The translations under genes were made by a program, and so were the position numbers. From Candidatus Kapaibacterium sp. (lineage in GTDB: Bacteria; Bacteroidota; Ignavibacteria; Kapaibacteriales; UBA2268): a DNA stretch of 64,000 nt. Below, in pieces: positions 3,560 to 44,542 of the stretch. The stretch covers positions 62,001 to 126,000 of the forward strand of contig JAPLFL010000123.1 in the NCBI GenBank assembly GCA_026390695.1, in the 5' to 3' direction. A model generated the notes under the pieces. That model was not told the origin of the DNA. It made no database searches and saw only the letters and a list, made by a program, of their open reading frames with translations. The number at the start of each line of letters is the position of its first letter. The stretch's first letter is position 1.

Positions 3560-3694
3560 AAAAACAAGTTAGATGAGAGGTTTTTGTCGAAAATAAGGTT
3601 TTACAGTGTTTCATCAATAAAATTCTATTTTAGTCAATATTTGTGTATAATTGTTAGCCTGTGGAGAGGGGAGTAAGATAAACGTTCCAACGGT

Positions 3695-3957
3695 GGATGC
3701 CTCAAAAGCCTCATTTCAGTCATTCCTGCGAATGAGTTGTTTGAAAACACGAAATATTCACGTATCTGTCATTCCCGCGAATGCGGGAATCCCCTTCCAT
3801 GGCGCAATTGGGGATTCCTGCATTCGCAGGAATGACAAGAAAAGGTAGTTTTCACACAGCCTCGAATGCAGGAATTCCCTAAAGTGGCACTGGAAGGAGA
3901 TTTCTGCATACGCAGGAATGACATTTTTGTTTAATATGTGGCTTTTGAGACAGCCTC
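3695..3957. mobile_element. Palindromic MITE-like element (type-2 ends, CTCAAAAGCC...GGCTTTTGAGACAGCCTC) carrying a nested insertion
   Basis: Outer arms ...gcctcaaaagcctcatttcagtcattcctgcGAAT / gaatgcagg...ggcttttgagacagcctc; interrupted by 3734-3863. Confidence 0.7.
3734..3863. mobile_element. Nested ~130-bp MITE-like element with GAAT direct repeats
   Basis: GAAT(3730-3733)|gagttgtttgaaaac...gttttcacacagcctc|GAAT(3864-3867). Confidence 0.72.
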
Positions 3958-26599: not shown

Positions 26600-26686
26600 G
26601 ATTAGATCAGTCTTTACAGTAATTGCTAATTTCATTTTTAAAACTTGATGATGTCTCAAAAGCATTGTTTCTGTCATTCCTGCCAG

Positions 26687-26818
26687 TGAGACTGTGTGAA
26701 AACTTCAATTTCTTGTCATTCCTGCACATGCATGAATCCCCTGATTGGTACTGGAAGGGGATTCCCGCATGCGCGGGAATGACAGATACGTTATTATTTC
26801 GAGTTTTCACACACTCTC
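26687..26818. mobile_element. 132-bp type-1 MITE-like element with CAGT direct repeats
   Basis: CAGT(26683-26686)|gagactgtgtgaaaac...gttttcacacactctc|CAGT(26819-26822). Confidence 0.78.
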
Positions 26819-36090: not shown

Positions 36091-37212
36091 CTATTTCTTC
36101 TGGCAAATATTCGTTATTGCTTTGCCCATTTCTTCAAGCGGAAATATTTCATCAACCGCATTGGCATTTAAAACGGATCTAACCATTCCCGAAACAACAC
36201 AAGAATCCGGTTCCTGTGCCACGCACCAACCGCCGGTCTGATGTAGTTTTTTCATACTTTCCATCCCATCATTTCCCATCCCTGTCATTATCACTCCAAG
36301 CATTGATGAACCATAAACATTAACCATAGATTCGAATAAATTATTCACACAAGGCTTATATAGAAATTCCGCAGAATCAGTTATTTTTATTTTTTTAAAT
36401 TTATTGATTGTCATTTGCCTTCCTCCCGGAGCCACATAAGCGCATCCATTCATAATATTGTCATTATCTTCGGCTTCTTTAACTTTAATTTTATACAGTG
36501 AATTTAAACGATTGGCAAAAGATAAAGTAAAATGTTCAGGCATGTGTTGGGCAATCAATATAGGAGGTAAATTATCCGGTAATGTTTTAAATAATTCAAT
36601 CAGAGCCATTGGTCCACCGGTTGAAATCCCTATTCCTATGACGGCTATATGATTAATATCCGACCTGCTTCTACCACTTAATTCATGCAGTTTGTCAGTA
36701 TTTACTCTCTTAGAAATTGCTGAATTTAATTGCTGAACAATTTTAGTTTGTTCTTCCTTACCTTCAGCGTGACTTAATTGTTTATATTTCCTTTTTATAT
36801 TAAATTTACTTTTAATTGATTCATTAGTACCAATATTAATGACTTTATCAATTATCTCTTCTTTCATACCCCACATTTCATTAAAAGCCGGTCGCTTGCC
36901 TACAAAGTCAATGGCTCCTCGGGACAGTGCATCCAGAGTAGATTCAGCTCCTTCAGTTGTGAGTGAACTTATCATAATAACAGGAGTCGGGAATTTTTTC
37001 ATAATCTCTGAAAGCGCATCCAGACCATTCATTATTGGCATTTCAATATCCATCGTGATAATATCCGGTTTTAATTCAAGTGCCTTTTCAACTCCAATTT
37101 TTCCATTTTCTGCAGTTCCAACTATTTGAATTTCAGGTACTGCTAAAATTCTTGATAAAGTTGATCTCATAAAAACAGAATCGTCAACAATTAAAACTTT
37201 TATTTTCTCCAT
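36091..37212 (-). CDS. cheB: Chemotaxis protein-glutamate methylesterase CheB
   Basis: REC (VLIVDDSVFMRSTLSRIL, ITMDIEMPIMNG) plus methylesterase (GISTGGPMALIELFKTLP, AQHMPEHFT, MTGMGNDG). Confidence 0.93.
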   Translation of the reverse strand: MEKIKVLIVDDSVFMRSTLSRILAVPEIQIVGTAENGKIGVEKALELKPDIITMDIEMPIMNGLDALSEIMKKFPTPVIMISSLTTEGAESTLDALSRGAIDFVGKRPAFNEMWGMKEEIIDKVINIGTNESIKSKFNIKRKYKQLSHAEGKEEQTKIVQQLNSAISKRVNTDKLHELSGRSRSDINHIAVIGIGISTGGPMALIELFKTLPDNLPPILIAQHMPEHFTLSFANRLNSLYKIKVKEAEDNDNIMNGCAYVAPGGRQMTINKFKKIKITDSAEFLYKPCVNNLFESMVNVYGSSMLGVIMTGMGNDGMESMKKLHQTGGWCVAQEPDSCVVSGMVRSVLNANAVDEIFPLEEMGKAITNICQKK

Positions 37213-37308
37213 ACAGATTTCTTCATTATTTTCTTTTAATATTTAGCATAATTAATTAGCTAAACTACTGAATTTTTTCATATATCTCATTTAGTCAATT
37301 CTGCGAAT

Positions 37309-37586
37309 GAGACTGTGTCAAAAGGTTTTACCTGTCATTTATGCCAGAGAGACTGTGTGAAAACTTCAATTTCTTGTCATTCCTGCGCATGCACGAATCC
37401 CCTGATTAGTACTGGAAGGGGATTCCCGCATGCGCGGGTATGACAGATACGTGAATATTTCGTGTTTTCACACAGTCTCCAGAGCAGGAATCCCCTATGA
37501 AGGTGATTCGCGGATACGCGAGAATGATATTTTTAGTAAATATTCTACTTTTAAGACAGCCTCCAAATTGGAATTATCACAGTCTC
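37309..37586. mobile_element. MITE-like element with GAAT direct repeats, itself containing a nested element
   Basis: GAAT(37305-37308)|gagactgtgtcaaaagg...ttatcacagtctc|GAAT(37587-37590). Confidence 0.75.
37349..37479. mobile_element. Nested 131-bp type-1 MITE-like element with CAGA direct repeats
   Basis: CAGA(37345-37348)|gagactgtgtgaaaac...gttttcacacagtctc|CAGA(37480-37483). Confidence 0.82.
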
Positions 37587-37727
37587 GAATGCAGGAATAC
37601 CTTTAGTAACTTTAGTGATTCCTGCAATTGAGAGTGTTTTAAAACTTAGCAAATCAATGCTTATGTCTTATAAGGAAACAGCTATATTTCCTGCTACTGT
37701 TCTCGCTTTTTATGTCTGTTTTTACCC

Positions 37728-38741
37728 TTATTTTATTTTAAAGTTCTCTATACATTTTTGGAATATCGGAAGATAATCTTTCTCTTCTTTTACACACCAA
37801 TTCAAAGTAATGAAATATAGTTTATCACTCTTTATCGTATAGTATGCCCGACTTCTAACATCACGATTAGGTGCATAGTTCACCATATAAGCATTTTGGC
37901 CGTCAATTTTAATCTCTTTTGTAGGCTGAGGATTTTTGAATTTTGAAGCATTGTCATCAACAATTTTTTTGAGATCATTCTGTACTGTTGCATCTTTTAC
38001 CATAACAATAATATTGCAGTCACCGCGGCGCTTGCCAATGTAGATCATTGCTTTATCACGTTTAACTTTATCAAAATTATCAGGAATAGGAATTTCAAAT
38101 CCATCACCTGATGTTTTGACAAGATTGGCCGAAGCAGGTGGAATTTCAATATTCACTGCAACTGATGCCTCTTTTGGGGCAGGTTGAGCAACTTTTACGG
38201 AATTCAGGATTTCCTGAAATTTAGCTTTGTACTGTTCAAAACAGCCACCAAAGCACTCAAACGTTACTACCGTAACAATAGAAGGCTCATTTGAAATAAA
38301 ATACTTTTCACCGTTAAATTCTCCGTCATTTGCAGTAAATTTATAGGCAAGTTTTGTTGAGGGAATACCCGTAACCGTAGTTTTCTCAGGTGCTGAATAG
38401 AACTGGTCGGCAGGTTGAAGTATTTTTGAAATTGAAATAATTTTATCCAAATTTCTTTCGGCAGTCATATCAAATGCCTGAACAGTAATTCTAACACCGG
38501 CAACTCCATCCGGTGAATAAGTTTTAAATCTTGAAGAAGATTCCTTTGGGAAATAGGCTACAAAGTTATCACCATCACTCTTAGCTGTAGTCCAGTCTTT
38601 CGGATAGCTAATAGAAAAATTTGCAAAACTATCTTTGTAAATGTCCAAATCCTTGATTTGTGGCAGATCAGCTTTTTTACCGCAAGATGATAAAAATAGT
38701 ACTATCATACCCGAAATCATTAATAAATAACTCTTTTTCAT
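37728..38741 (-). CDS. Predicted lipoprotein, PsbP/DUF1795-like fold suspected
   Basis: MKKSYLLMISGMIVLFLSSCGKKADLP lipobox; DSFANFSISYPKDWTTAKSDGDNFVAYFP; start moved from the ORF call (38849). Confidence 0.6.
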   Translation of the reverse strand: MKKSYLLMISGMIVLFLSSCGKKADLPQIKDLDIYKDSFANFSISYPKDWTTAKSDGDNFVAYFPKESSSRFKTYSPDGVAGVRITVQAFDMTAERNLDKIISISKILQPADQFYSAPEKTTVTGIPSTKLAYKFTANDGEFNGEKYFISNEPSIVTVVTFECFGGCFEQYKAKFQEILNSVKVAQPAPKEASVAVNIEIPPASANLVKTSGDGFEIPIPDNFDKVKRDKAMIYIGKRRGDCNIIVMVKDATVQNDLKKIVDDNASKFKNPQPTKEIKIDGQNAYMVNYAPNRDVRSRAYYTIKSDKLYFITLNWCVKEEKDYLPIFQKCIENFKIK

Positions 38742-38779
38742 AATTACTCCTTGAAAATAATAAACTATTAATAAAAATA

Positions 38780-39190
38780 TTAATTCATTTTTGCACCTTC
38801 GGAAATCCACTTCTTTACGCCATTTAACTGCTGTGAATCGAATTTCCAATATATCGAACCATTATGTACAACTTTAAATTCCAAATACTGAACCAACCGG
38901 CTTGCTTCCGGATCATTCGGAACTACCATCCCAAGCGCTGATCCACTAAAAAGCATCATATAATCATCAAGAACAATTCCTGCTGCCTGCGACTGAGTAC
39001 TATGGCAGCCAACTGTAGCACAAGTCATTTTAATGAACGGCTGAACATGATATGTCCAGCTTACATTAGAATCGGGAAAAACAATTGGTGTATTGATAGC
39101 GGTTGAATTGCCACAAGCGCAATGGATCAGTACGAATACCGTTATTAAGATAAATATATTGAATATTTTATATATGAATTGCAATTTCAA
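38780..39190 (-). CDS. Small c-type-cytochrome-like lipoprotein with CX4CH motif
   Basis: Lipobox VLIHCACG; WTYHVQPFIKMTCATVGCHSTQSQAAGIVLDDYMMLFSGSALGMVVPNDPEASRLVQYL. Confidence 0.68.
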   Translation of the reverse strand: MKLQFIYKIFNIFILITVFVLIHCACGNSTAINTPIVFPDSNVSWTYHVQPFIKMTCATVGCHSTQSQAAGIVLDDYMMLFSGSALGMVVPNDPEASRLVQYLEFKVVHNGSIYWKFDSQQLNGVKKWISEGAKMN

Positions 39191-44323: not shown

Positions 44324-44542
44324 ATATCATTTCCTACTTGAAGTCTGTCATTCCTACGAATGAGACTGTGTGAAAACTCACAACTTCTTCTGGATTGTCA
44401 TCCCCGCGCATGCTGGAATCCCCTTCCAGTAACAATCAGGGGATTCCTGCATGCGCAGGAATGACAGAAATAAAGAGTTTTTACACAGTCTCATCAGCAT
44501 GAATGACATTAATTCCTAATTCATTAAGGAAATGATATAATA
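44324..44542. mobile_element. Palindromic element (type-3 ends), inverted relative to 41813-41982, with embedded type-1 element at 44362-44492
   Basis: atatcatttcctacttgaagtctgtcattcctacgaat|gagactgtgtgaaaac...tttttacacagtctc|atcagcatgaatgacattaattcctaattcattaaggaaatgatata. Confidence 0.68.

Follow-up and report, generated by a model that had tools for sequence, protein, structure and literature searches.

Within the 64,000-nucleotide stretch of DNA analyzed here (the window), a nest of short elements occupies positions 37297–37645, with a CheB-type gene on one side and a PsbP-like gene on the other (window 36091–37212, 37728–38849) and the CheB start about 0.1 kb downstream of the nest. Three levels of insertion are readable in it, plus one truncated event. 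The innermost is a 131-bp element on the + strand (37349–37479), bounded by GAGACTGTGTGAAAAC...GTTTTCACACAGTCTC and belonging to subfamily A, whose terminal inverted repeats (left, 37349–37364, +; right, 37464–37479, –) agree at 16 of 16 nucleotides (100%). With this length, these ends and no transposase gene, it qualifies as a MITE, and it folds into a single long hairpin (z = -11.5). Its target duplication is CAGA, the left copy of which (37345–37348; the right is at 37480–37483) is the loop of a REP in the host element. The inner element itself carries a dimer of REPs: REP 1, ATTCCTGC-GCAT-GCACGAAT (37379–37398, +, offset 30), and REP 2, ATTCCCGC-ATGC-GCGGGTAT (37422–37441, –, offset 73), which form its first and second internal target sites.

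The outer element that it splits (37309–37586, +) is decayed and chimeric, combining subfamily-B-like left and right arms with a residual A-type right end. The second-subfamily right arm, CTTTTAAGACAGCCTC, lies inside it and ends at 37563, with the subfamily-B right terminus GAGGCTGTCTTAAAA at 37549–37563 (–); the right end of the element is weak (GAGACTGTGATAATT), with only CACAGTCTC remaining. It is flanked by GAAT at 37305–37308 and 37587–37590. The sequence-only reading had described nested elements with perfect 4-bp flanks, and both the coordinates and the CAGA and GAAT repeats are confirmed in the sequence; what it called simply a related outer element has the GAAT flanks but is more accurately a recombined chimera. 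The outer element in turn splits a third-level host, the REP palindrome AATTCTGC-GAAT-GCAGGAAT (core TTCTGC-GAAT-; 37297–37598). The palindrome that the same reading took for a hairpin remnant is present, then, but it is a REP, and it has a partner: half of a second REP, ATTCCTGC-AATT, lies at 37618–37629, and a fourth left terminus, GAGAGTGTTTTAAAAC (37630–37645, +), sits one-sided in the loop of that partner, its right half lost.

These elements are abundant in the 4.63-Mb host genome, where GAGRCTGTSTSAAAA (at most one mismatch) has 298 matches, compared with 3 for the reversed pattern; within the window, GAGACTGTGTNAAAA (at most three mismatches) has 26 matches versus 8.2 expected. Our counts rest on a genome-wide pattern search and on 719 kb from four whole, unselected contigs, which contain 67 A-type (GAGACTGTGTGAAAA) and 36 B-type (GAGGCTGTCTCAAAA) termini. 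Elsewhere there are numerous full-length relatives of the 131-mer, up to 98% identical, and the dispersed copies have target-site duplications, as expected for MITEs and in support of the earlier suggestion of a non-autonomous element. The window holds a further 131-bp copy with a CAGT duplication in a REP loop that adjoins a B terminus at 26647 (26688–26818, +), another in a REP-like site whose right duplication has decayed (44362–44492, +), and a B element with an A-type copy in a REP loop (3693–3957, equal to C99:65693–65957; right junction GAAT-GCAGGAAT). Rfam gave no credible match. MITEs of this kind are already known. The Correia elements, also bacterial MITEs, are similarly short, high-copy and non-coding, with inverted ends and a target duplication, but they have other ends and duplications and are not known to target REP loops. 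The new part is the self-targeting REP cargo and the loop-exact duplication.

The position of the insertions can be read directly from their junctions, which take the form ATTCCYGC-NNNN / element / NNNN-GCRGGAAT. Of 215 distinct A-type termini, 145 have the half-stem ATTCCYGC in precisely the interval -12 to -5, with six or more of its 8 bases matching, and in 87 of them it is perfect (8 of 8), while about one-third of the 215 lie away from any recognizable REP half-stem. Where both half-stems are present, the 4-bp flanks match exactly in 37 of 75 pairs and differ by one base in 17. The sequence-only reading could have failed on random 4-bp matches or on borders that do not coincide with GAGAC/GTCTC; the borders do coincide, and 22 of 70 pairs match, where shuffled pairing gives 4.5 on average. 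No own-genome pair in the set of 70 has a match that extends over 5 bp. Because the termini lie 4 bp beyond the half-stem and the pairs match over 4 bp, the duplication is the loop of the REP palindrome, TGTC-ATTCCYGC-N4-GCRGGAAT(CC). Eighty-one REPs without an insertion in the 719 kb provide a paralogous stand-in for orthologous empty sites.

A few A-type termini lie in another palindrome type, TCCCAAGC-N4, and a few B copies at the AATT center of yet another palindrome. Because some A and B copies use these other palindromes, the pattern suggests that palindrome shape is more important than sequence for targeting. None of the 36 B-type termini in the 719 kb is at a REP half-stem; subfamily B was not found in REP loops in the host genome, although in Massilia elements with its ends do occupy such loops. 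The flanks of several B elements (e.g., C15:132871–133001 and L083:2001–2223) are repeats in inverted, not direct, orientation.

The REPs correspond to the published CGTC-1 definition, with an 8-bp stem starting with AT, a 4-nt loop, and head-to-head dimers. Their stem-loop is ATTCCYGC-N4-GCRGGAAT, the tail is mostly CCCC or CTCC, and with both sides of 81 palindromes taken into account, the TGTC tag occurs 76 times outside the stem. The 719 kb contain 30 dimers; 21 are bounded on one side or both by transposon ends at the spacing expected, and 16 on both, compared with 0.6% of random positions. The first reading of the window did not note that the target is usually a palindrome loop and that this palindrome is the REP carried by the element itself.

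Such dimers could in principle be the mobile unit themselves, moved by a Y1 (RAYT-like) transposase into pre-existing long palindromes that mimic terminal repeats. Y1 transposases are linked to REPs elsewhere, the host genome has four Y1_Tnp (PF01797) genes or remnants, and the CGTC-1 dimers of H. neapolitanus were described as lying "within" 41-bp palindromes (PMC3733652). We nonetheless consider this explanation very unlikely, given that it is the GAGACTG ends, and not the REP dimer, that the 4-bp duplications flank, and that in other bacteria these ends enclose complete IS1182 genes as well as unrelated interiors. For two of the four Y1_Tnp genes (C52:70213 and C15:210307), the nearest mapped REP is at least about 0.9 kb away. 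The former (C52:70213–70554) is interrupted by a TGA, and a REP-bearing element is found some 0.9 kb from it.

The nesting is explained by the cargo: with a head-to-head REP dimer between its ends, each element brings along a target of its own. Same-direction termini are spaced about 41–42 and 84–86 bp apart, as expected from insertion at the first and second internal REPs. The earlier proposal of successive transposition is likewise supported, since nested copies retain exact loop duplications at both junctions, not only in the window (CAGA) but also where A copies lie inside B elements (C52:171109 and C99:88647). These duplications, together with the same duplications around unnested copies in related genomes, make it extremely improbable that the main source of the nests was recombination, slippage or assembly collapse between hairpins of similar sequence rather than successive insertion. 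Processes of that kind do appear to be needed for some arrangements, and this is what the alternative has in its favor: left-half arrays and chimeric or two-loop elements seem to require secondary recombination or joining between two loops. The arrays consist of tandem left halves, 41–42 or 85 bp apart, that lack matching right halves (C87:59749–60134, C98:7684–8001 and C56:17430–17730), and they recall the left-end tandem duplications reported for IS1272. The two-loop elements (L055, L059, L142, L010 and L021, all in the host's own genome) have a different loop on each side, which simple insertion does not give, and REPs in opposite orientation; six are in that order and one or two in the other. 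They look as though transposon ends had joined both REPs of one dimer, with the intervening DNA removed.

Outside the host genome, the same junctions are found in 4 of 35 family-level relatives, in which the elements are mostly near 130 bp and the duplications include ATTC and TTTC, also around unnested copies. When species genomes were scanned, the junction also turned up in Ignavibacteria, Cloacimonadota, Binatia, Gammaproteobacteria and the isolate Massilia rubra. The Massilia rubra elements (173–176 bp) have perfect duplications, are sited in TTCCCGC-N4-GCGGGAA and carry the same kind of REP dimer; among 300 genomes of its order, we found no other carrier. A match in Altererythrobacter (L188) proved to be a chance match within a ClpB-like gene.

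The guess in the sequence-only reading that an IS1182-type element is involved is borne out by autonomous IS1182 elements that share these ends and make duplications of equal length. Three from viral-collection contigs (L304, L331 and L332) are intact, 1.59–1.66 kb long, have the same ends and 4-bp duplications, and encode IS1182 transposases that score 390–452 bits (profile cut-off, 270 bits). From the host's own class, L341 (IS1182, 359 bits, same ends) and the homologues L370, L371, L373 and L382 combine these ends with 4-bp duplications at palindrome centers, for example AACCCACGAC[TTAA]..[TTAA]GTCGTGGGTT and CTTCCCAAGG[TCTT]..[TCTT]CCTTGGGAAG; the target arms pair at 6–8 of 8 positions and are unrelated in sequence. 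Ends of the GAGGCTGTGTGAAAA type are found on L304, L331, L332, L341, L370 and L382 (IS1182 proteins or homologues), and several distinct IS1182 elements have 12–15 of 15 bases in common at both ends. The palindrome preference is not universal in IS1182, because three near-identical elements from one other genome, with somewhat different ends (L339, L359 and L366), lie outside palindromes, their arms pairing at only 2–3 of 8 positions. None of the autonomous IS1182 copies found lies in a CGTC-1 REP loop.

The MITEs have IS1182-family ends, and an IS1182 DDE transposase probably mobilizes them in trans. No IS1182-type transposase above the cut-off was found in the host assembly, where the sole PF13751 match is an IS5-like protein, and this counts against trans-mobilization there. 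An autonomous partner in the same genome is usual for an IS1182-derived element but not strictly part of the definition, and in an assembly broken into 129 contigs a multi-copy IS could have collapsed and dropped out. One might instead trace the ends to another DDE family active in the host, such as IS5 or IS256, with the IS1182 match a convergence, since the host does have an IS5-like transposase (C124) and a pseudogene (C31) but showed no IS1182 transposase above the cut-off. Neither fetched IS5-like region has such ends, however, which discounts both as the master copy, and convergence would have to extend to the end bases, 4-bp duplications and palindromic targets of distinct IS1182 elements; we regard this origin as highly improbable. 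IS256 duplications, at 8–9 bp, also count against that family.

Other candidate partners were set aside. The IS1182-like protein L192 (relative G014, C49) has ends of its own that resemble GAGTCCMCTCTAAAAA; its element (L192:1306–3144) directly adjoins a truncated MITE, of which one half remains within a REP loop, and the arrangement may reflect stem-loop replacement. IS1182 relatives from haloarchaea and from Streptomyces/Methylobacterium have different ends, and where a long element (600–4000 bp) with the window's ends was sought among the loci fetched at that stage, only ordinary host genes lay between two copies.

Several of these properties have precedents. Like the window elements, IS1182 family members have GRGGCTGT...AAAA-type ends and palindromic targets, whereas the window elements lack a transposase and carry REPs. 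IS1272, an IS1182 member from Staphylococcus, is reported to recognize inverted repeats as structures and to replace them, with loop duplication sketched by the authors as another possible outcome (PMC5678879); whereas IS1272 reportedly takes the place of the entire stem-loop and makes no duplication, the elements here keep the stem and duplicate the loop. ISPse1 (IS1182, Paracoccus), whose ends match at 16 of 16 positions, was captured in a trap plasmid with a duplication of 4 bp (PMC3281130), the length also seen around the window elements. CGTC-1 REPs, including Neisseria dRS3, share with the window REPs the TGTC/CGTC tag, the 8-bp stem starting with AT, the 4-nt loop and the head-to-head dimers (PMC3733652). 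When the CGTC REPs were described in 2013, no dedicated transposase was reported for them (Di Nocera et al., PMC3733652), and the dimers were seen as inserted into palindromes, whereas here they are cargo between transposon ends, with the REP loops as targets. IS1397, ISKpn1, IS621 and ISRm22 also enter REP palindromes, ISRm22 at the palindrome axis, but these are autonomous and are not reported there to carry their own target REPs or to nest in themselves (PMC1525189). We found no published text with these end sequences, and no paper that joins IS1182 loop targeting with CGTC REPs in a search whose coverage left subscription journals largely outside. That several IS1182 lineages target loops exactly, tolerate different sequences there and duplicate the loop appears to be new, as does the plausible role of an IS1182-type DDE transposase as the vehicle for CGTC REPs.

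Overall, we think it very likely that these are IS1182-derived MITEs that target loops through an IS1182 DDE transposase acting in trans and that nest in one another through their own REPs. In such a scheme, the transposase would select palindromes able to form a hairpin or cruciform with a stem of about 8 bp and a 4-nt loop, and a 4-bp staggered cut at the loop would leave the loop as a direct repeat at both ends. The common target in the host genome is a CGTC-1-type REP. With two head-to-head REPs per unit, every insertion would add two target sites, later copies would nest within earlier ones through these internal REPs, and exchange between repeated REPs or ends would trim the nests, leaving tandem half-units and chimeras such as the outer element. 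Trans-mobilization, cruciform recognition and this trimming mechanism we infer from comparison of sequences. A broader proposal, which we offer tentatively and hold to be somewhat doubtful, is that CGTC-1 REPs, which occur in several phyla and have no known transposase, owe their spread in part or wholly to IS1182-type MITEs that carry them as cargo, and that the transposase recognizes any short palindrome with a 4-nt loop.

If this is true, the carried palindromes would be the element's own landing pad, and expansion by nesting would take place in non-coding DNA, with genes spared. More generally, the elements show how nested non-coding layers can accumulate when a parasite brings its landing site with it. 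The target choice of IS1182 is refined to one that is loop-exact, with the loop as the duplication, in palindromes of unrelated sequence, and the orphan CGTC REP superfamily gains a testable vehicle. The nests also record the order of insertion and may be of use as strain markers.
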